Shown: positions 3,897 through 48,768 of the stretch, piece after piece
Position numbering within the stretch: position 1 is the stretch's first letter
How the letters are laid out: each line of letters begins with the position of its first letter
DNA from: a virus
DNA: 49,017 bases
Direction: 5' to 3' (one strand)
IMG/VR virus record: IMGVR_UViG_3300035670_000328
Span: 1-49,017 of that record
Notes under the pieces: generated by a model
The model's database searches: none
What the model saw: only the letters and a program-made list of their open reading frames with translations
Told to the model about the DNA's origin: nothing
Translations under genes and position numbers: made by a program

Positions 3897-6800
3897 ATGA
3901 ATCAGCAATATCCTGCAGCGGGACTCGCCTCCCTTCTTGCATCTCAAGGGCGTGGCGGGGACTCTACTCTTGTCCACATGACTCCTGATGAAGTTCAGGT
4001 ACTTAAAGAGTTTGCCGAAGCAAATGGGCTACCTCTAACTTACAACCCTCAAACGGGGTTACCCGAAGCGTTTTGGCTCACTGATTTTCTCAGAGGGGCT
4101 TGGGATAGCGCTAAAAAGATTGGCACTGCAGCAATCCAAAATCCCGCCATTACAAGCGCTTTGGTTGGTACCGCTTATGGAGCCGTGAAAGGTGACCTGC
4201 AGAAGGGTCTTGAAGCAGGTATGGCGGCTTATGCCGGGACGAAACTACTGGGCGGGATTACTCAAGCCGCGCAACGCACAGATACTTCTAGGGGTGGAGT
4301 GCGGCGTCCAACTCTTAGCGATGAAGCTTTAAAAAGCAAAGGGTATACAGATAAAGAAATTGCTAATTTAAAAATTGAGTTTCCCCAAACCGTTACTCAG
4401 CAGCCTGAAATAGGTGGCATCGCAAGTATTTTTGGTCGAGGGCGGCAGGGGCAAGGATTGTTTCAGTCAAACGATCCGATTATGCAGGCCATCGCGCTTT
4501 ACGGCGCACAACGGCTAGAGCAGAGGTTGACGGGACAAAAACGAGGGATTCCGGCTCCTCAACCCCAACAGTTTAGGGATGTCCAGTTTAGTCGTGGGCA
4601 GGTCAATCCGCGATTTGGTGAACCGGGCCAGCCTTATTTTATTGGCGGTGGGTATGCAGATCGAGGCATCACTACGCAATATCCCGGCTACACGCAAACA
4701 CCCACGACACCTCAACCGCAGAGTCCGGTGCAGGGACAACAGCAACCTCCACCACCACCGAATAGACCACAGGAGAGGCCACCCCCCTTTACGGGGCCTT
4801 TTTATCAGGAACCCCCTCGCTACGGACTTAACCTAGCGTCGGGCGGGATTGCTTCGCCTACTAGGTATGCAGAAGGCGGTGAAGTGGAGACGGAAGAAGA
4901 AAGGAGGCGGAAATACTTCGAGAATCTGCGCCCTTTCGCTCCCGCCCTGTCTGACTTTTATCGCTCCGGCACTACAGGTGTCGGGTCAGATCAGGGCGTA
5001 GCTCCAGCGAATGTAGACTCCATGACACGGCTCCCGCAGCCAGCACCGACAGGGGTCGCGACAAGTGCAGATTCACTTCAACCTTTTGATCCGGATTTAG
5101 CGGATTGGTATCAGTCCTTATTGACTCCTCCGACCAGCCGCCCCCCTGTAGAGATGGGGGACTATTTCCAACCTGAAGCATTTAAAGCACAGCCTCAGTT
5201 TGGGCCGGTTGTAAATTATCCTTACGAGCGTCCCCCGCCACCCCCGCCTCCAGCAGCACCCTACACTTGCCCGGACGGTAGCGAACCGGACTACAGTCTT
5301 TTAGCTCAAGGCTTAGATCCTTGCGGACTCCTCAAGCGCTGCCCTGACGGTAGGATAGTTTTTTCCACTGAATCTTGCGATGGGCAAGGTGATGGCGACG
5401 AAGGTGGCGACGAAGGTGGCGACGAAGGTGGCGACGGAGGTGGTAATGGGTGTCCTTCCGGACAGACCCGCAATCCTATAACGGGCGTATGTGAGGGTGA
5501 TGGAACTACTCCTCCGGGGCCTCCTCCGCCTCCGGGACCTCCTCCGCCTCCGGGACCTCCTCCGCCTCCGGGACCTCCTCCGCCTCCGGGACCTCCTCCG
5601 CCTCCGGGACCTCCTCCGCCTCCGGGACCTCCTCCGCCTCCGGGACCTCCTCCGCCTCCGCCTCCCGCGTTTGAGGTTTGTTGGGACGGGTCCGTTATTT
5701 ATCCGGAATTAGGTGAGGTCTGCCCAGAACAACCGCCTCCGCCTCCTCCGCCTCCTCCGCCTCCTCCGCCTCCGCCACCGGTTAAAACATGCCCGGACGG
5801 CTCGGTTATTCCCGTAGGAGAAGAATGCCCTCCACCTTTAACAGACCCAACTTGTGACCAGCCGGGGCAAATTTACGATCCAGAAATAGGCCGATGCCGC
5901 ACGAACGCCTCTAGTGATGCAGACTGCCAAGATCTTTTTGGTAGCGATTACGAGTACGACCCTAGCGCTGATGGGGGGCTTGGTGGCTGCCGTAAAAAAC
6001 AAGCTCCGCCTCCACCACCTCCGCCGCCACCTTCTAGTGGTGGAACGCCCTTTAAACAGTGTCCGGAAGGTTATGAGTTTGATTTAGCCCGTGCGACGGT
6101 AGGGTTAGATCCGTGCGTACCTAGGGAGCAGCCACCTACTAATAGACCGCCACCGCAAGAACCATTACCCCCGACATTAGATTGTCCACGAGGGTTTAAA
6201 CCACACCCGTACTTAGACAGATGTATCTTTGAAGATACAGAAGTAAAACTGCCTAGCAAAGATGCTATCGGGGCACCTTTCTGCGAGCCGGGTTGGGAAT
6301 ACAACCGCATGGACGATATGTGTTACAGGCGGGCACCGCAAGAAGAACCCCCTGCCGATGAAGGAGACTATGGCGGCGGAGATAGTGGCGGTGATTACCA
6401 AGATGCGTACTCTGATCTTTGGGACCGCGTTACTAGACCCGTTGGGGGTGGTGGAGGTAAAGGGCCGGGTAAACCGTCAGTGGAGGTTGATATTCCGCCC
6501 GAACATGACGCCCGAGATGGCGGCGGTAAAGCACAGGGCGGTCCCGTCTACAACCGAGACATCGACTTATCTTCTATGAATGCAAACCCGTTAGCGGAGT
6601 TGACTATGTATGACATCCCAACATCTCCCCCGCCAAGACTAGGCTCGGAGGATTACCGAATGATGCGGCGTGACCCTTACTACGCACCGATGGGACTTGC
6701 TGCGTTGACTCGTAATCCTCAGTTGGGTGCGGCAACTAATCCTGTAAGTGGTTATAACTTCGGTTTCGCAGCAGGTGGCTTGACTGGGCTTCCAGAATAT

Positions 6801-15849: not shown

Positions 15850-16046
15850 AGCACTCGCCAGACCCTAATACCTAGTGTGTCATCTTTCGATGACGGATAA
15901 GCCTTGACCTTGAGTCCAGCTACCTTGGCGCGGTTCTCCACAACAAAAATAAGCTCAGCGGGGCGGAGTGTAGGGATAAAGAAACTATCCCCTACGTCCA
16001 TGCTGTCAAACGGAAAGATCCACTCCGGCTCAGGTATTCTGTCCAT
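15846..16046 (-). CDS. Small conserved phage protein, function unknown
   Basis: 66 residues. The segment FPFDSMDVGDSFFIP is a motif that recurs in small phage proteins of unknown function, followed by a basic helix (ENRAKVAGLKVKAY) and a C-terminal strand (GIRVWRVL). The layout looks like a compact alpha/beta nucleic-acid-binding fold, but that is a guess. The start at 16046 overlaps the 3' end of the primase-helicase gene by 17 bases. It is the last gene of the leftward block, and its TAG stop overlaps the TAA of the rightward giant gene. Confidence 0.65.
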   Translation of the reverse strand: MDRIPEPEWIFPFDSMDVGDSFFIPTLRPAELIFVVENRAKVAGLKVKAYPSSKDDTLGIRVWRVL

Positions 16047-18873
16047 CTTTGTTTAGAACCTGCTCTGGTAGTTTGCACTTAATGGCGTACACAGAAATCG
16101 GATTGTCGTGCAGCCCCGACCCCCACCCTGTCGACAGTCGCTGCCTTGTCTTACTTAAGCCGTGGTTCTTCATGGCTCTTTCAAACTCACCACTACTAAC
16201 TTGCTTCTCTGCCAGAAACTTCTTCAAGGCGCTCGTAGAGATGTACTGCATACTGTTATGGATTTCTGATCGTGCAACAAAGGGACGACCTTTCATCGGC
16301 TCCTGAACCACTCGTGACTCGTCAAGGACCAGCAGTCCCGCTAAGTTGTTGTGCAAGAACTCTGTGACCAATGCTGGGTAATCCGTGTTATTAATTTTGA
16401 CCGTGTCATCCTTCAACTGAATGATTTCCAAAATCACTGCGTCAAATATTCGCTCCAGATCGTAGTCGACGATGCCCGCCTCCATTGCTAACTCAGTTCC
16501 TGCGAACGTTGCAGCAACGATGTTTCTGTAGAACCGGTAGCCTGTATCCTCACCAAGCTCTGTATTGAAACGCTCAAACCATTTGTCTACTAGGGCTTTT
16601 ACGTAGGCTTCTCCGCGCTTGTAGTAGTGCTGGATATACTCAATGCCTGCGTGTCCGTAGTGAAATCGGAACTTATCGAAGTGTGCGATACCTATGTTGT
16701 CATTGAACCATTCAGGCTGCTTTATGATGAACTCAACCAGTCGAGCCATCTCCCCATCCGGACTACCCTTCAAAGTCTCCAATTTGTTGTAAATCGACTG
16801 GTTACTCGTAAAGAACGTAATCATTGACGCAGAGGCTTCATGCTCCCGCTCGGCATTCACCGAAGCCTGCATACGTACCTTTGCCTTACCGTGAGATACC
16901 GCATGGATCAGCTTAGCTAAGTCTTCCGGTTTAGCGTTCGACGCTTCGTCGATGCCAAGTGGCAAGTTCTTCAGGTTCAAATAGCGCCCAATAAATCCGT
17001 TTTGAGTTGCGCCTTGATCCACAAGGCTTAACTCCTTGGGATTACCCCAGATACTAATCGCTCCGTACAAAGAGCCAGTCTTACCTGTACCTGAGCTTGC
17101 ACTGAGAAAACAGATTGATGTCCCTGCTACGGTAGTCATACTCATCAAGGGTGAGCCAAACCCCGTCATCATTCCGAATGCCTGCATCTCGAAACCGGGG
17201 CGGTTAAAGATCGTAGTCGCCTGCTTCCATACAGCGTAATCGCCCGTAGGCTTTAAATGCTTCGCCACTCCACGCACTAAAGGTGACGATGCCGCCCGTA
17301 CAACCTCGCCTGTATTCTTAATCTCATTGTTCCCAATGACGAATGCATCTCGCTCTTCTGTCCAACCCATCTGCATCCGCATCTCTTCGGCTCTCCCTAC
17401 GCTCGATAGGTACTCTACCCATCGAATAAAATACTTCATCACCAACTTCGTCTTGTCTGGATCAAATGTTACCCCGCTCTGAACAATCGCTTTAGTCAAA
17501 TGCTCAGAAGAATAAATCTGATTCACCGGCAACATAAACTCGCGAGGTCCATCCATCGGCATCACTGTCCGCACCATCAGGCACTCCCCATCATGGGGGC
17601 TAAACATTCGCTTGTACGGATAGATCGGGCGTGTGATCAACTCAATCGGTGGTGGCTGCTTTACCTTACCTGTCTTATCAATCGTCGCAGGTGGGGTGTA
17701 GACGATGCTCCCCCGTGCGCTGCGCGTGAACGGCTCCAGATACTCAGGGAAGATCAGCAGGTCCTGCGTCTCCGCCTCGCCCCACACCGTGTCTGTCATC
17801 GGGGGCAACGGGGCTGTCGACTGCTCCGGTAACCGGACCTTCCGCGCCAAGGCAATGGGCGACGTAAACTGCCCTTTGAACGGACATCCTTCACAGCCCT
17901 CTGGGTACTCTTCCGCAAACTTTGAGCAGGTCCAAGGCCCACTAGCTTTAAGGGTCTCCTTGGCTTTTAGATCTGCCTTCTCAAACGTGTAATCAGGATG
18001 GCCTTCCGACACCGCACGTATTGCCGCATCGCGGTCCACGCATCTCTGAGCCACGGATAAAGCGCCAAACCATAGCCCGTACGACAGCGTCTCGCGGTTC
18101 TCAATAGCGTGCTTGATCTGATTACATCCGTTACCGGAAAGACTTTTATCTGCCAGCAGTGCAAATGAATCCTCAAAGTTGTCGAGCCTTGCAATGGCCT
18201 TGGTCTCTTCGTCCATACCTCGCGACTTCGCTTTGATAAGCTCAATCGTCTGCACGACATCCAATTCCTTGCTGCCAAGGAACTCTTTAAAAGCTTCAAA
18301 GTCATACTGGTAAAACTCGGTGTCGATAAACTGAGAAGGCGCTCCCACACGTAGGTTCATGGTCTCAGGGCAGCGCATGACGCGGGCTGCATCTGCCGTT
18401 ACCGCAGGATCAATCAGCAGCCCCTTGTCCATACAGAACTGTTTGAAGCGAGCGGCAAATACTTTCCACTCGTCGATCTGTACCTCTTCTTCAAACAGCC
18501 AGTATGCCTGCACGCCGCCGCCCGAATCGATGCGGGTGGGAGGGGGTAACTCAAACTCAGTTACAAACTGATCCAGTGCATTTAAAGCATCTTCTTTACT
18601 TTCGTACGATACACTGCCGTGATTGACATCAAGGTCAATAAAGAAAGACCGTCCGAAGACTGCGTTGCTAGCCGACCGACTCTCGTCTTTAAACGAACAC
18701 GGAGTCACATAAACGTTACTATCGGTTTGCTCGGAATACTTTTGTAGTAATTCCTCAAGCTCATCAACAGAGTGCGCGTACTCGTGCCGTGTTCGTTTCG
18801 TTTCCGGATTGATCAGTGCTACGCAGTAGACCCCAGAAGACGGTAATGCTTTTTCGTAAAATTGTTTTCTCAT
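16030..18873 (-). CDS. Primase-helicase (AEP/PrimPol-type primase plus ATPase)
   Basis: 947 residues. The N-terminal half looks like an archaeo-eukaryotic primase: FIDLDV at 78-83 (metal-binding D-x-D), SGGGVQAYW around 117-125, and DAARVMRCPETMN at 161-173. A small cysteine cluster, C...CEGC near 316-334, suggests a zinc finger. The C-terminal half is a P-loop helicase domain: Walker A-like ASSGTGKT near 588-596, LGIDEAS near 638 (Walker B), and TFFTSNQS (sensor/polar residue). The protein should lay primers and unwind the phage fork. It follows the HTH gene after a terminator-like hairpin and has only a weak Shine-Dalgarno. The fold assignment is confident; the exact family is not. Confidence 0.85.
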   Translation of the reverse strand: MRKQFYEKALPSSGVYCVALINPETKRTRHEYAHSVDELEELLQKYSEQTDSNVYVTPCSFKDESRSASNAVFGRSFFIDLDVNHGSVSYESKEDALNALDQFVTEFELPPPTRIDSGGGVQAYWLFEEEVQIDEWKVFAARFKQFCMDKGLLIDPAVTADAARVMRCPETMNLRVGAPSQFIDTEFYQYDFEAFKEFLGSKELDVVQTIELIKAKSRGMDEETKAIARLDNFEDSFALLADKSLSGNGCNQIKHAIENRETLSYGLWFGALSVAQRCVDRDAAIRAVSEGHPDYTFEKADLKAKETLKASGPWTCSKFAEEYPEGCEGCPFKGQFTSPIALARKVRLPEQSTAPLPPMTDTVWGEAETQDLLIFPEYLEPFTRSARGSIVYTPPATIDKTGKVKQPPPIELITRPIYPYKRMFSPHDGECLMVRTVMPMDGPREFMLPVNQIYSSEHLTKAIVQSGVTFDPDKTKLVMKYFIRWVEYLSSVGRAEEMRMQMGWTEERDAFVIGNNEIKNTGEVVRAASSPLVRGVAKHLKPTGDYAVWKQATTIFNRPGFEMQAFGMMTGFGSPLMSMTTVAGTSICFLSASSGTGKTGSLYGAISIWGNPKELSLVDQGATQNGFIGRYLNLKNLPLGIDEASNAKPEDLAKLIHAVSHGKAKVRMQASVNAEREHEASASMITFFTSNQSIYNKLETLKGSPDGEMARLVEFIIKQPEWFNDNIGIAHFDKFRFHYGHAGIEYIQHYYKRGEAYVKALVDKWFERFNTELGEDTGYRFYRNIVAATFAGTELAMEAGIVDYDLERIFDAVILEIIQLKDDTVKINNTDYPALVTEFLHNNLAGLLVLDESRVVQEPMKGRPFVARSEIHNSMQYISTSALKKFLAEKQVSSGEFERAMKNHGLSKTRQRLSTGWGSGLHDNPISVYAIKCKLPEQVLNKDGQNT

Positions 18874-18932: not shown

Positions 18933-19247
18933 TTACTGAATAGGTCTACCAATCATTGACTCAATGTAGTCAATAGCTGCCTTTGAATCTTTGACTGGCA
19001 AAATCCCATTAGCAAAGTCTTCCTTCAGTAAGTCTATGAAGACCTCCACTGCCTTACGCTTATGCTCTCTTACGCCCTGTCCACGAAACCATTTGTAGAC
19101 CGTCGTTCCTGATACTTCCAAAGCTGCTGCGACAGCCGTGGCAGGAAGGTTGGCTTTTACACACAGCTTCGCGAGTTGTAGCCCGAGGGTCTCAGGCGCT
19201 GACTTTTCCAAAGCTATAAGAAACTTTTGTCCGTAAGGTCTTGGCAT
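18933..19247 (-). CDS. Helix-turn-helix DNA-binding protein
   Basis: 104 residues. The segment LPATAVAAALEVSGTTVYKWFRGQG (~34-58) is a clear helix-turn-helix with the recognition helix ending in TVYKWFRG. It is preceded by a helical N-terminus (LEKSAPETLGLQLAKLCVKANL) and followed by a helical C-terminus that may dimerise. It probably regulates transcription or assists replication. It is 9 bases downstream of the candidate ssDNA-binding gene and just upstream of the terminator-like hairpin before the primase. Candidate targets include the palindromes near the promoters or origin in this window (inference). Confidence 0.75.
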   Translation of the reverse strand: MPRPYGQKFLIALEKSAPETLGLQLAKLCVKANLPATAVAAALEVSGTTVYKWFRGQGVREHKRKAVEVFIDLLKEDFANGILPVKDSKAAIDYIESMIGRPIQ

Positions 19248-34360: not shown

Positions 34361-34918
34361 CTATCCGTGGAACTGCCCCCCGCAAGCGCATGACGGGTTG
34401 CCGGTCTGCTCGATCCACTTGGCGGTGGTGCGGATCAACATCCCACAGGAGTCACACTCCAACTTCACAAGGCGGGTGGGCTGTTTCTTGCGCCCCGTCA
34501 GGTCCAACGCACCGTGGGTCAGGGGTGGCAGGGCGGCGAGTATCCGCTCCAACTCCGCCTTGAGTTCGGCCCCCGCATGGGTGCTCGTCATCTTCCCTTC
34601 GAGGCCAATGGCCTTGGCAATGGTCCTGAATGCCTTCTTGTGACCCGACACACAGTCATCGACAGCATGGACCGCCTCATGGGCCAGTACATCAAGCATC
34701 TGCACGGGGTCCGACAAGGTGGGGTTGATGAATATCTCGTTGACGTTGTCCTTGGACCGAGCACGGGGCCAACACTCTCCGATCCGCTTACGGGCAGAGC
34801 CGCCGCCGGGGAATCCTACGGACACTCGGGTGTCTGACGGTATCTCGACTTGGGCCTTCTCTTGGAACCAAGGGCGCAGTGCGTTTAAACCGGCGTTGAG
34901 CCATTCTTCACGGGTCAT
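34361..34918 (-). CDS. SprT-like zinc metalloprotease
   Basis: 185 residues from the ATG at 34918 (GGAGG upstream, ATGA overlap). HEAVHAVDD at ~80-88 carries the HExxH zinc motif, GHKKAF (~92-97) supplies the next helix, and the C-terminus has a zinc ribbon (CDSCGM...CACGG). SprT/Spartan proteases degrade DNA-bound proteins or crosslinks. In a phage it might clear proteins ahead of replication (inference). Expressed from the leftward small-gene operon that starts near 35.6 kb. Confidence 0.85.
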   Translation of the reverse strand: MTREEWLNAGLNALRPWFQEKAQVEIPSDTRVSVGFPGGGSARKRIGECWPRARSKDNVNEIFINPTLSDPVQMLDVLAHEAVHAVDDCVSGHKKAFRTIAKAIGLEGKMTSTHAGAELKAELERILAALPPLTHGALDLTGRKKQPTRLVKLECDSCGMLIRTTAKWIEQTGNPSCACGGQFHG

Positions 34919-35145
34919 GGTGCTACCTCCGCTTGACGCTTCTCCCACTCCTTACGCTCCTTCCGCAGGGCCTCGATGTACGGGGCGAGGTTGTGCAGGT
35001 CCGACAGGGCGTAGGTCAGGTCCTTGATATGACGGCTCCGCGTTTTGGTTCGGGCGGTGTACAGATAGGTTGCGGCTAGCTCCTTATCTCCTAGCTTAAG
35101 TGCTCGGACCGCCACCGATAGGTTCTGAACGTCTTGCTTGATCAT
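34915..35145 (-). CDS. Small helical hypothetical protein
   Basis: 76 residues, almost entirely helical and basic (MIKQDVQNLSVAVRALKLGDKELAATYL, then an ALRKERKEWEKRQAE C-terminus). GGAGAAGCAAAC precedes the ATG. It overlaps the SprT gene by 4 bases. Not recognised. Confidence 0.6.
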   Translation of the reverse strand: MIKQDVQNLSVAVRALKLGDKELAATYLYTARTKTRSRHIKDLTYALSDLHNLAPYIEALRKERKEWEKRQAEVAP

Positions 35146-35157
35146 GTTTGCTTCTCC

Positions 35158-35343
35158 TTATCCGAAGTAGTCGGCAAGGACCGACAGGTCAGTGAAGTCT
35201 TGGGTCTCGGCCTCCAGTTGGGCGGCGTCGTCCCCTTGTACGAAAATCTCGCCACCGTGGGTCAGGCATTCGATGGCATAGGCCATGCCGTTCCCGTATG
35301 AGGTGATGGCGTAACCGTCTTTGGTGAATCGTGTCTGTCTCAT
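35158..35343 (-). CDS. Small hypothetical protein
   Basis: 61 residues from the ATG at 35343, chosen for the GGAGAAGCAAAC immediately before it. Sequence MRQTRFTKDGYAITSYGNGMAYAIECLTHGGEIFVQG, then an acidic helix (DDAAQLEAETQDFTDLSVLADYFG). It has the same opening (M-x-QTR) as the next gene, so the two may be related. Confidence 0.6.
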   Translation of the reverse strand: MRQTRFTKDGYAITSYGNGMAYAIECLTHGGEIFVQGDDAAQLEAETQDFTDLSVLADYFG

Positions 35344-35357
35344 GTTTGCTTCTCCTG

Positions 35358-35561
35358 TTATCGCCAACCGGCACGGCGTTCGACGCTGTAGTAGTGGTTC
35401 CCGACTTCGCCTGCTGCTTCCTTGGCGGTCTCGTATGACGGGTAGGTGATCTCGCCGGTCAGGCCGGTGACCTCATTGATGACTTGCCATGCGTTGCCAT
35501 ACCCCACGATGGAGGCGTAGCGGTTGACCCGATATTCGCGGGTGGTGCGGGTTTGCTTCAT
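35358..35561 (-). CDS. Small hypothetical protein
   Basis: 67 residues from the ATG at 35561 (GGAGAAGCAGAC upstream). It is the first gene after the 35.61-kb promoter. MKQTRTTREYRVNRYASIVGYGNAWQVINEVTG is followed by SYETAKEAAGEVGNHYYSVERRAGWR. It shares the M-x-QTR start and the 'YGN.W/A' motif with the next gene, suggesting a tandem duplication. Confidence 0.6.
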   Translation of the reverse strand: MKQTRTTREYRVNRYASIVGYGNAWQVINEVTGLTGEITYPSYETAKEAAGEVGNHYYSVERRAGWR

Positions 35562-35579
35562 GTCTGCTTCTCCAGTTGT

Positions 35580-35596
35580 CGCAGCACCGTGCTGCG
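35580..35596. promoter_or_regulatory. 17-bp palindrome in the leader (operator or hairpin)
   Basis: CGCAGCACCGTGCTGCG: perfect 8-bp arms around a central C. It lies just downstream of the -10 at 35610-35615 and just upstream of the ribosome site of the 67-residue gene, so it may be an operator or a leader hairpin. Confidence 0.5.
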
Positions 35597-35609
35597 TTGT
35601 GGAACATAC

Positions 35610-35636
35610 GTTATAGAACATTTAAACCCCTGTCAA
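35610..35636 (-). promoter_or_regulatory. Candidate sigma70 promoter
   Basis: - strand: -35 TTGACA (35636-35631) and TATAAC (35615-35610), with a rather short 15-base spacer holding TTTAAA. It reads into the small-gene block that includes the SprT gene. The spacing makes it weaker than the others. Confidence 0.5.
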
Positions 35637-36060
35637 CACTTCTCGTGAAAAAAGTTGGGGGCCTGTGGATAACTCTGTGCCGGTTGTGCCGGTTGTGCCG
35701 AAAATTGAGGTTGTAGAATAGCACAAGAAAAATGACCGTATGGTGGTATGTGCGATTTGTAAGTGTCTGATATTATTATTATTATTATTTTAATTTATAT
35801 AATATATGTATAGTATGTGTCAATGTGCCGGTGTTTTTGAAATAGGACGGCCCCAAAACGGGTATTGATGATGCGCTTGCCGTCCCTCCTCCCCTTCTCC
35901 ATTTTTCCGTTTTCGGACCCCCTATGTCGAAAAAACCGGCACAACCGGCACAAAGTGTCACTTTTCCCAATAAAATCATAAACTTAGCTTGTGCCGGGAT
36001 CAAAGAAAAACCGGCACAAACCGGCACAAAGCCGCACAAAAACCGGCACAAGAAAAAAAG

Positions 36061-36089
36061 TTGACAACGCGAAAACGTTCTGGTAGCCT
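36061..36089 (+). promoter_or_regulatory. Candidate + strand promoter inside the origin
   Basis: -35 TTGACA (36061-36066), 17-base spacer, extended -10 TGGTAGCCT (TG at 36081-36082, hexamer 36084-36089). The -10 hexamer is poor, so the call rests on the -35 and the TG. It points toward - strand genes with no + strand gene ahead, so it would make a non-coding or primer transcript. Confidence 0.4.
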
Positions 36090-36103
36090 TGGGTACCCAA
36101 GGC
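36086..36103. promoter_or_regulatory. 18-bp perfect palindrome
   Basis: GCCTTGGGTACCCAAGGC, an exact 18-bp inverted repeat, overlaps the -10 of the candidate promoter within the origin. Such a site may be an operator for a dimeric repressor. The centre is GGTACC. Confidence 0.6.
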
Positions 36104-36228
36104 CGGACGAAGAAAAATCGGGATCGCAAAGTCAAGCAGAATCCACCGGCACAAAGCGCGGTTCAGCGCAGTATGCAACGTGACGTTTAAATGACCTCGC
36201 CGGAGGTGGCACGCACGCTGCGCCCGCG

Positions 36229-36248
36229 CTCACGCATAACTGGTATCA
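36229..36248. repeat. Conserved motif, copy 1 (CACGCATAACTGGTATCA type)
   Basis: CTCACGCATAACTGGTATCA, one base different from copy 2 at 37043-37062. It lies just 5' (on the - strand) of the origin and after the terminator of the GP88 gene. No promoter follows at the expected spacing in this copy. Confidence 0.6.
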
Positions 36249-36264
36249 GGCGTCGGCAGACAAG

Positions 36265-36295
36265 AAAAAAGGCGGGGGGCCGAAGCCCGCCCGCC
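36265..36295 (-). terminator. Rho-independent terminator after GP88 gene
   Basis: - strand: GC-rich stem (36271-36276 with 36290-36295, then GGGC/GCCC, one bulged base) with a short loop, followed by a run of six T. It lies just downstream of the GP88-like gene stop and separates it from the origin. Confidence 0.8.
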
Positions 36296-36309
36296 CCCGG
36301 AGGATTCCG

Positions 36310-36930
36310 TCAGTGTTGGTAATACGCCACATTCTGGACCTTGACATCCCAACATGCGCGACAGGGTCCACACTTGCCAGCCCGCTCGAATGCCCGACAC
36401 GTTGCCAGACTCTTATCCGATACCACCGTTGAGGTGTGCGGGTAGTTAGGCGCAGCCTTGTCGATATGAGTAGCAGATACCCGCACGATCAAGTTAGCCG
36501 GAACGTCGACACCCTTAACGTAGCGCGGTTCCTTAGTTGGTAACCAATGCGTGGTGTTGGGTGTTGCGCGGGCTATGTCGCAAATGAGCCGGAAGTGATC
36601 CGTTGATTGCAGGTCACCCGAGTCGTGCCAGCGAAAATAAGGATTCCGGCTAATCAAGTAAGTCATCGCCGAAATAAACTCTGCACGAAACGTGCTATCC
36701 GCTAACGCACGAGCCAACACCGACATGCGGCGAGTTAACGCATCCTGCACATTCGGGAATACGTATCGCCCTTTGCGTGCGTAGCACATCGCGCACACTG
36801 AACCGGCAAGCTTCGACAATCGTCCGCCCGTCTGACATAGGAATGCACTAATCGAGAATGACGGACAAGGCATTTTGCTAGGCGCGGATAGTCCACCGAC
36901 TAGCGCGTTCGCTGTTTTAACTTTCCACAT
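36310..36930 (-). CDS. GP88-family phage protein
   Basis: 206 residues of the phage 'Gene product 88' type. Recognisable pieces: KMPCPSFSISAFLC, GSVCAMCYARKGRYVFPNVQDALTRRM, FRWHDSGDLQS, HWLPTKEPRYVKG, NLIVRVSATHID, and a C-terminal CRAFERAGKCGPCRACWDVKV. Three cysteine clusters could bind zinc or a metal cluster. Function is unknown in this family. It has its own strong promoter (36970-36997) and terminator, so it is an independent early cassette, placed next to the origin. Confidence 0.8.
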   Translation of the reverse strand: MWKVKTANALVGGLSAPSKMPCPSFSISAFLCQTGGRLSKLAGSVCAMCYARKGRYVFPNVQDALTRRMSVLARALADSTFRAEFISAMTYLISRNPYFRWHDSGDLQSTDHFRLICDIARATPNTTHWLPTKEPRYVKGVDVPANLIVRVSATHIDKAAPNYPHTSTVVSDKSLATCRAFERAGKCGPCRACWDVKVQNVAYYQH

Positions 36931-36969
36931 GATGCTTTTCCTCCACGTGGCAACATCGCCACGGTTCCC

Positions 36970-36997
36970 ATTATACGATTCGTAAGTTACGTTGCAA
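36970..36997 (-). promoter_or_regulatory. Early promoter 1 (conserved, with embedded palindrome)
   Basis: - strand: -35 TTGCAA (36997-36992), 16-base spacer, -10 TATAAT (36975-36970, perfect). It shares the core TTACGAATCGTATAATGG with two other promoters at 37.68 and 38.99 kb. The spacer holds TACGAATCGTA, an inverted repeat reaching into the -10. It drives the GP88-like gene. A hairpin (GTGGC...GCCAC) lies in the leader. Confidence 0.85.
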
Positions 36998-37042
36998 TAT
37001 TAATTTTCGCCCACGCCCCCGCTCGCACGCATGGCCCACGCG

Positions 37043-37062
37043 CTCACGCATAACTGGTTTCA
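37043..37062. repeat. Conserved motif, copy 2
   Basis: CTCACGCATAACTGGTTTCA (on the - strand TGAAACCAGTTATGCGTG). Its near edge is 45 bases upstream of the -35 of early promoter 1. A nearly identical site has the same position before promoter 2. Confidence 0.7.
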
Positions 37063-37704: not shown

Positions 37705-37747
37705 TATTTTTATCCCGCCCCCCGTTCGCACACGCGACCCCCTCGCG

Positions 37748-37767
37748 CACACGCATAACTGGTTTCA
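37748..37767. repeat. Conserved motif, copy 3
   Basis: CACACGCATAACTGGTTTCA, one base different from copy 2. Its near edge is 43 bases upstream of the -35 of promoter 2, almost the same distance as copy 2 from promoter 1 (45). Confidence 0.7.
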
Positions 37768-39252: not shown

Positions 39253-39804
39253 ATGATGAACCACGATTATCTCGTTCCCGACATAGAAGAGGACATCCCT
39301 CTTCCTAAAAACGCCTCCGAGGCGTTGCCGACCCTGTCCCCCCGCGAAGAACTGGACAGAATAGCTAACACTATCAAGGGGTTATCGGATTTAACGGACA
39401 CTCCACTCGAATTTGACGCCTCCGATGTCGAATCGGCGAAGAAAGTGGCTAAGGAATTGGTCCAGAATCCCAAGACAAGACCTAACTACAACGCTTTGCG
39501 GGATAGCACCAAGGCGGTTTTGGCGGGGATGGTGGCTCAATACGACTTTGAAGTGGTCGATGATTTGGTCCAACTGAAGAACTTCGTGATCAACGGGCTG
39601 TTGGATGAGTACCGGAACGCCTCAGAGAGTAAAACTCGGTTGCAGGCTCTGACCAAACTGGGTGAAGTCGACGGGGTAGACGCCTTTAAGAAGCGCAGTG
39701 AGGTCACGCATCAGATCAAACCGATTGAAGAAGTGGAAAAAGAGTTACTACAAGTGCTGGAGGGCGTAGAGTACACGGTATTAGAGGGCAAAAATGCCAA
39801 TTGA
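39253..39804 (+). CDS. Putative terminase small subunit
   Basis: 183 residues just upstream of the large terminase. Acidic N-terminus, helical body (AVLAGMVAQYDFEVVDDLVQLKNFVINGLLDEYRNASES), and a charged C-terminal tail. It lacks an obvious HTH, so assignment rests on position and on similarity in size and layout to proteins preceding large terminases in related phages. It starts ATG-ATG with a weak ribosome site and overlaps the next gene by 11 bases. Confidence 0.55.
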   Translation: MMNHDYLVPDIEEDIPLPKNASEALPTLSPREELDRIANTIKGLSDLTDTPLEFDASDVESAKKVAKELVQNPKTRPNYNALRDSTKAVLAGMVAQYDFEVVDDLVQLKNFVINGLLDEYRNASESKTRLQALTKLGEVDGVDAFKKRSEVTHQIKPIEEVEKELLQVLEGVEYTVLEGKNAN

Positions 39805-47889: not shown

Positions 47890-47955
47890 GGGTCTTGTGT
47901 TATTAGTTTGGATCGTGTACAGTTACCTGTGTCTGAATCAAAATGGGCTTCCATC

Positions 47956-48768
47956 ATGAAAAAGTCAGGTATCTACAAGATCATTAACGTCATAAATAAC
48001 AAGTTCTACGTAGGGAGCGCGGTTGATTTCCGTCGGCGTAAGCGGATTCATTGGTGGAAGCTGCGGCGAGGGGATCACGTTAATAAGCATCTTCAAGCCG
48101 CTTGGAATAAGTACGGGGAGAAGTCCTTTACCTTTGTAATTGTTGAGGAGTATCCAGAAGGCGCAGATCTTCTTGCAGCAGAGAACGTATGGCTCAAGGC
48201 ACATGTTGGTAAGGAGTACTGCTACAACGTAGCAACTGACGCTACCGCTCCTACGTTAGGTATGTCGGGCGAAAAGAATTACATGTGGGGAAAGACGTTT
48301 AGTCATACCCCCGAAGCCAAACTAAAAATTGGTAAGCACAGCCGAGGGCGTCGTCATACCAAGAAGTCCCGTGAAAAAATCCGCCTCCGTTTAATAGGCA
48401 AACCCCGAACCGCTGAAGTCCGAGCGAAGATTGCTGCGTCTGTATCGGGGGAGCGTAATCCGAACTATGGCAAGCCCCGTGATGCTTCGTTCATCGAGAA
48501 GGTGAGCCGAAAAGTTGTGGCTATAAAACCTGATCAAACTGCCAAAGTTTATCCAAGCATCAAGGCGCTTCGGGAAGAGCTAAACATTAAACCTCCCACC
48601 ATTAATCGCGCACTGAAGTCGGAAAAACCGTTAGCTCGTGGGCCATATAAAGGTTGGATATTCAAAGCAGTTGACACTCCATCAGCCCCAGCGTATATAG
48701 ACGATACCAAGACAACAAACCCATCAGACAGCTTTCTTGGTGCTGACGACATGCAGACTGGTGGGTGA
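47956..48768 (+). CDS. GIY-YIG homing endonuclease with NUMOD motifs
   Basis: 270 residues from the ATG at 47956 (an earlier ATG at 47908 is possible). The catalytic domain begins SGIYKIINVINNKFYVGSAVDFRRRKRIHWW..HVNKHLQAAWNKYGEKSFTFVIVEEY (GIY-x10-YVG). Two NUMOD3-like pieces follow (GEKNYMWGKTFSHTPEAKLKI; GERNPNYGK) and a C-terminal NUMOD1-like helix-turn segment (YPSIKALREELNIKPPTINRALKS). It is a free-standing mobile endonuclease, inserted after the capsid terminator. It has no clear ribosome site or promoter of its own. The upstream 16 codons are probably untranslated. Confidence 0.9.
   Translation: MKKSGIYKIINVINNKFYVGSAVDFRRRKRIHWWKLRRGDHVNKHLQAAWNKYGEKSFTFVIVEEYPEGADLLAAENVWLKAHVGKEYCYNVATDATAPTLGMSGEKNYMWGKTFSHTPEAKLKIGKHSRGRRHTKKSREKIRLRLIGKPRTAEVRAKIAASVSGERNPNYGKPRDASFIEKVSRKVVAIKPDQTAKVYPSIKALREELNIKPPTINRALKSEKPLARGPYKGWIFKAVDTPSAPAYIDDTKTTNPSDSFLGADDMQTGG

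Follow-up and report, generated by a model that had tools for sequence, protein, structure and literature searches.

The stretch of DNA analyzed here, referred to as the window, is a virus record of 49,017 bases in which no terminal repeat was found. Its structural genes are read rightward and fill 0–15.8 kb and the part from 39.25 kb onward, up to the last base; its early genes are read leftward from 39.2 to 16.0 kb, encoding among others an SNF2-type helicase, a RecB-like nuclease, a family A DNA polymerase and a 947-amino-acid primase-helicase with a DUF927 domain (16030–18873, minus strand). A 104-amino-acid XRE-type HTH protein is encoded at 18933–19247 (minus strand), and its gene is the upstream neighbor of the primase-helicase gene in all genomes in which the two were readable. 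An open reading frame after the capsid-like gene (47908–48768, plus strand) looks to encode a GIY-YIG homing endonuclease. Named phages are only distantly related, the nearest being 023Pt_psg01, DSL-LC04 and pelagiphages by terminase (50–53%), and Pseudomonas phage Rollin and Rhizobium phage RHph_TM27A by primase-helicase (24%). The phage belongs to an abundant, mostly uncultivated freshwater group; a bacterial genome bin labelled Rhodocyclaceae holds a 77% terminase relative, and there is a hint that the hosts are betaproteobacterial.

Within the leftward early operon, between a small open reading frame (35358–35621) and a GP88-family gene (36310–36930), lies an iteron array of 12 sites of the TTGTGCCGG type spanning 35675–36154. 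Five sites are on the plus strand, at 35675–35683 (CTGTGCCGG), 35684–35692, 35693–35701 (TTGTGCCGA), 35823–35831 (ATGTGCCGG) and 35989–35997, and seven on the minus strand, at 35936–35944, 35945–35953, 36011–36019, 36021–36029, 36031–36039 (TTGTGCGGC), 36043–36051 and 36146–36154. Eight are perfect (2 plus, 6 minus), all within 35684–36154 (471 bp), and the other four are near copies, so that exact and near-match counts agree with the original prediction of about twelve copies, eight of them perfect. The suggested search of the whole 49-kb window found no perfect copy outside the array, against a chance expectation of 0.66 copies over the window, and the expected over-representation relative to shuffled sequence was also seen, as no 9-mer in 20 window shuffles ever exceeded 4 copies per 490 bp. 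Open reading frames were called mechanically inside the array, but none is a credible gene because relatives rewrite the repeats, in agreement with the earlier description of the region as devoid of genes. Rfam and tRNA searches returned no match. A perfect 16-bp palindrome, CCTTGGGTACCCAAGG, lies within the array at 36087–36102 and occurs in the relative G011 as well. A scan of viral contigs for paired TTGTGCCGG recovered L082, which is the same phage, and otherwise few contigs with clusters. A separate repeat, GGAGGCGGA, present 14 times in 490 bp near 5525 (5.5–6.0 kb), is a coding repeat of a 1054-amino-acid structural-side gene and is unrelated to the iterons.

The predicted AT-rich tract is present at 35768–35815 (94% A+T), where no 50-bp stretch of the genome is richer in A+T than the one beginning at 35771, and it is a candidate DNA unwinding element flanked by iterons, with 35675–35701 on one side and 35823–36154 on the other. 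Beside the tract is an IHF-like site, TATCAGACACTTA (35760–35772, minus strand), with one mismatch to WATCAANNNNTTR, the IHF consensus. A second, AATCATAAACTTA (35974–35986, plus strand), also has one mismatch and is inverted relative to the first, 214 bp away. Sites with at most one mismatch number 46 over the window against 34 expected, so the window's own pair is not outstanding by itself. As had been predicted, the region contains one perfect 9-bp DnaA box, TTATCCACA (35664–35672, minus strand), which adjoins the outermost iteron; the window has two occurrences of the looser motif TTWTNCACA, against an expectation of 3.2. The shift in GC skew at 35.7–36.1 kb that the original prediction led us to look for did not appear. 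The cumulative GC minimum falls at 39,423, a divergent gene boundary, and third-position skew of the leftward genes differs little between the two flanks (0.14 and 0.11). Skew follows gene direction and was rejected as an origin marker; it neither supports nor refutes an origin here.

Relatives were collected through the neighboring GP88 gene or the terminase (at least 590 terminase relatives were matched), and nearly all are metagenome contigs. The same layout was found beside the terminase in 60 other regions from related uncultivated phages, making 61 with the window. The arrays of these relatives occupy the same place, with 8–15 copies in most, but the repeated unit differs from the window's: it is TTGTGTCAG in G011 (GP88 protein 96% identical to that of the window), TTGTGTCAR in G002, TTGTGCGG in G012, ATGTGTCAG in G013 and G015, and TTGTACGCT, TTGTTCCAR, TTGTTCCGC, TTGTTCTGG or TTGTTCACG in further relatives. 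Nearly all units have a TTGT or TGT in common, after which the other half varies. The sites mostly keep their order and orientation. Iterons come first, then one inverted iteron, and these are followed by a conserved box and a pair of iterons; some 100 bp of filler separates that pair from an inverted one, beyond which lie a similarly placed A+T tract, a second conserved box, more inverted iterons and the promoter side of the next operon. Nearly all copies have thus changed at once on a constant scaffold, as if the change were imposed by a protein of changing specificity, and this comparison marks the array as a functional unit.

Other elements share this neighborhood. CCAGTTATGCGTGNGCGCG occurs three times on the minus strand of the early region, at 36225–36243 (CCAGTTATGCGTGAGCGCG), 37039–37057 and 37744–37762, against 0.03 expected, and most relatives have one to six CCAGTT elements ahead of the iterons, on the strand that the iterons occupy. 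Between the array halves, at the centre of the window's origin region, GGCAAGTGCA (at most one mismatch) adjoins a G+C-rich inverted repeat; it was found in 23 of the 61 regions against 1.9 expected and could be a primase or single-strand start signal. The parts read of HTVC027P, DSL-LC04 and Pseudomonas phage Rollin contained no comparable cluster of iterons. The cultured relative RHph_TM27A (L517), which has a similar gene order, has an A+T-rich gap before the early operon (7357–8126 of L517, 19355–20125 of the phage record) with no clear iterons; the 48.9 kb read contained just two exact matches to the IHF consensus, both in this gap and 318 bp apart. In G033, the terminase (gene at 34611–37004) is split into two matching segments inside one 817-amino-acid open frame, like an intein or in-frame insertion.

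The conserved box of the relatives, GTAAGTGCTTGATT, reads AATCAAGCACTTA on the opposite strand and fits WATCAANNNNTTR, and many relatives have the exact consensus at the position aligned with the IHF-like site at 35760–35772. Across the 61 regions (39.7 kb), the exact consensus was counted 80 times compared to 3.05 (sd 1.7) in dinucleotide shuffles, a count inflated by some near-duplicates among the regions, which leave the disjoint-pair test described below unaffected. The density was 2.0 per kb in the origin regions, while the phage DNA around them had 0.04 per kb, and 43 of the 61 regions contain an inverted pair 150–350 bp apart with at most one mismatch in each site. Helical phasing of the pair was also considered and set aside, as the peak near 10 bp was weak and unconvincing.

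Covariation with the iterons was tested for two proteins, the primase-helicase, whose gene lies 17 kb from the origin, and the 104-amino-acid HTH protein, with the array and both genes readable in 39 genomes. When every genome pair was used, neither protein gave more than a weak partial correlation, and the assignment of an iteron reader therefore rests on close pairs (58–97% identity over primase-helicase residues 1–780). Among these close relatives, the excess divergence that accompanies different iterons is confined to the last ~125 residues of the primase-helicase. Measured against the remainder of the protein, conservation of residues 821–947, the approximate extent of its C-terminal domain (16030–16413, minus strand), is lower by ~22 points in different-iteron than in same-iteron pairs, a contrast of about −0.22 (p ≤ 0.0014) over 500 random sets of disjoint pairs, each holding 4–5 different-iteron and 9–10 same-iteron pairs, with only 4–5 independent iteron switches usable. 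In 60-residue windows starting before residue 760, the largest contrast was −0.08, compared to −0.27 for the C-terminal domain. Individual pairs with differing iterons follow this pattern: identity over residues 1–860 and 866–947 was 83% and 58% for the window's phage and G012, 84% and 55% for G002 and G012, 71% and 38% for G087 and G078, and 66% and 40% for L162 and G070. Same-iteron pairs had no such C-terminal drop, and in a mirror case, G018 and G012, which have similar iterons, identity was 67% outside the domain and 68% within it.

The primase-helicase profile matches the solved structures of SCCmec Cch (5dgk) and SaPI Rep (8tch), with E-values of 7.6e-15 and 2.8e-12, and the NCBIfam cassette chromosome helicase model also matches, at a score far below its family cut-off. 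An AlphaFold2 model of the last 162 residues had a pLDDT of 82.8; the best two PDB folds for the predicted C-terminal domain were again 5dgk and 8tch, at a weak Foldseek E-value of ~0.03, followed by winged-helix HSF domains, also with weak E-values. Together, covariation and fold suggest that a winged-helix-like C-terminal domain of the primase-helicase may read the iterons, and the primase-helicase is probably the initiator. The occurrence of iterons in a phage with a primase-helicase, which had been considered an uncommon arrangement, is no longer odd, since covariation makes the primase-helicase itself the probable initiator.

In the original prediction, host DnaA was suggested to work together with an iteron-binding protein of the phage. 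Comparable cases are pSC101 and R6K, where Rep, DnaA and IHF are all needed (PMC5043065). For the window's phage this part of the prediction stands as a possibility, since the perfect box lies beside the last iteron and is kept in G011. It does not extend to the group: a perfect box was found in only 5 of the 61 regions (the window, G011, L197, L228 and L218), in differing places, and was absent from G002, G012, G013 and G015, the next closest relatives after G011. Although TTATNCACA exceeds expectation across the 61 regions (5 observed, 1.3 expected), this low and positionally variable occurrence indicates that DnaA is not part of the common mechanism, and self-loading has been proposed for Cch2, a helicase of the same type as the primase-helicase (PMC7581432). 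A cooperating role for DnaA, which would be compatible with the explanation we prefer, is on balance unlikely.

A second alternative keeps the origin and has the iterons read by the 104-amino-acid HTH protein, which then recruits the primase-helicase. This protein, whose gene sits beside that of the primase-helicase wherever the two were readable, was initially our favorite on account of residue 47. Of the 841 variable columns scored against iteron distance, with whole primase-helicase distance held constant, residue 47 had the top association both with the iteron and with the iteron's fifth base; it is the first residue of the predicted recognition helix and is G or S with TTGTG, K with TTGTA and R with TTGTT. 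The association rests, however, on about two clades. G002 and G012 have one recognition helix in common and yet carry TTGTGTCAA and TTGTGCGG, respectively, and XRE proteins usually bind palindromes as dimers, while the iterons here are not palindromic. In close pairs, the HTH region showed no excess divergence with differing iterons (contrast −0.04, median p 0.21), and the protein was demoted because the same pairs place that divergence in the C-terminal domain of the primase-helicase. The earlier expectation of a separate HTH protein as the iteron binder is thus not supported, and we consider this reading improbable. A code based on HTH residue 57 (WFRGA with TTGTTCT, WFRGQ with TTGTTCC) was good in 26 genomes and was abandoned when broken by G076, G087, G088 and G090.

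Many relatives also carry phage-type-specific palindromes of 14–18 bp, in 2–8 copies (for example CGTATTANNTAATACG, TCCTGACANTGTCAGGA and GCCATTANNTAATGGC), near early genes and to either side of the origin. Such sets were found in G044, G047, G054, G058, L162, L179, L197, L213, L218, L228 and others, and also in G033, G065, G067, G068 and G070, but not in the window's own clade. They look like phage-specific operators, perhaps for the XRE-type HTH protein.

These operator-like palindromes close to the array in many relatives lend something to the view that the repeats are an operator or activator array for early transcription and no origin at all. The repeats also lie between genes of the leftward operon and upstream of a promoter-like TTGACA...TATAAC near 35610–35636, a site judged from the sequence and not called by the promoter scan. 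Against this, ~40 bp separate the promoter-like site from the nearest iteron, the array extends over 480 bp and encloses an A+T tract accompanied by a pair of IHF sites, and its sequence changes together with a domain of the replicative helicase, and we regard a purely transcriptional role as very unlikely. A DNA packaging (pac/cos) or partition site is the least credible reading, for although terminase genes lie 1.5–4 kb away in relatives and IHF also acts at lambda cos, the terminase is 77–94% identical between phages with entirely different repeats, and it is the C-terminal domain of the primase-helicase that tracks the repeats.

The explanation we consider probable is that the region is an iteron/IHF origin opened by a self-loading primase-helicase whose C-terminal domain reads the iterons. 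An iteron-type origin, the core of the original prediction, is very probable and well supported because the layout is kept in 61 regions, the unit is rewritten in concert, IHF sites flank the tract and the C-terminal domain of the likely initiator covaries with the repeats. Judging from covariation and fold, several copies of the primase-helicase would bind the 9-bp iterons through the winged-helix-like domain, and the conserved consensus sites suggest that host IHF would bend the DNA at the two inverted sites by the A+T tract and so join the array halves. By analogy to known relatives, the tract would then melt, the helicase ring would load itself, the fused primase would start synthesis and the phage family A polymerase would take over. 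Host DnaA may assist at the one box in the window's phage, which would not be a general feature.

Iterons, A+T tract, IHF and DnaA are already known from plasmid origins (PMC5043065), and SaPI, SCCmec and P4 already provide initiator-helicases that carry a reading domain. In the open literature searched, we found no precedent for a phage with its initiator gene 17 kb from the origin and an origin label repeatedly rewritten among close relatives. We tentatively propose, as a possibility that we would not yet favor, that replication specificity in this group is a switchable two-part lock, in which all the iterons and the C-terminal domain of the distant initiator would change in step on a constant host-IHF scaffold. 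If this is true, a change of iteron could place relatives that infect one cell in different replication compatibility groups, or could shield a phage from satellites or competitors that use its replication proteins. The origins of most environmental phages are unknown, and here a conserved one is located in a large group and its likely initiator domain named. The relatives form a natural series of matched iteron and domain pairs, which offers data for a code by which a DNA-binding domain carried on a helicase recognizes its origin, and the question of why close relatives keep changing the origin label becomes testable.

Several known systems can be compared with this origin. HTVC023P-type pelagiphages have a related terminase (52%), and 023Pt_psg01 (L322) has seven TGTGCCA, several of them paired (AGTGTGCCAAGTGTGCCA), ~4.1–4.4 kb upstream of its terminase gene; tblastn found no match to the primase-helicase in 023Pt_psg01 or these pelagiphages, and the paper describing them does not mention iterons or a replication origin (PMC9599517). 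The pSC101 and R6K gamma origins contain tandem iterons, an A+T-rich opening region, an IHF site and a DnaA box (PMC5043065). The window has all four kinds of element, its IHF sites being IHF-like, and differs in that the DnaA box is not conserved in its phage group; no plasmid Rep initiator of the pSC101, R6K or RK2 type was found among the window proteins scanned. The initiators of pSC101 and R6K are not known to be helicases. In lambda, the iterons lie inside the initiator gene and a host helicase is loaded, whereas in the window's phage a single protein, whose gene is distant from the origin, probably serves as both initiator and helicase. The lambda origin otherwise offers a parallel, with replicon-specific iterons bound by the phage's own initiator O and an A+T tract beside the array (PMC5043065), as the window's array likewise adjoins such a tract and combines replicon-specific iterons with a proposed phage initiator.

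The satellite phage P4 alpha protein fuses primase and helicase and has a C-terminal winged-helix origin-binding domain (PMC10516667, PMC7145576). The window protein has the same fusion and a C-terminal domain predicted to be winged-helix-like, although the repeats differ and the P4 domain is not among the listed fold matches of the window's domain. We know of no conserved IHF pair at the P4 origin. Initiator-helicases of SaPI and SCCmec bind iterons through their C-terminal domain (PMC7581432), and the SaPI Rep/Pri and SCCmec Cch/Cch2 proteins of Staphylococcus, AAA+ initiator-helicases with short iterons, resemble the window's primase-helicase by profile and by C-terminal fold. The placing of iterons to either side of an A+T-rich region is a further point that the window shares with replicons of the SaPI, P4 and SCCmec type. 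Unlike these elements, the window's primase-helicase is found in a phage with its own family A polymerase, and its phage group has paired IHF sites. The SaPI origin lies directly downstream of the helicase gene; because the window's origin is 17 kb from its helicase gene, we class the system as SaPI-like in its working and not as a SaPI replicon.
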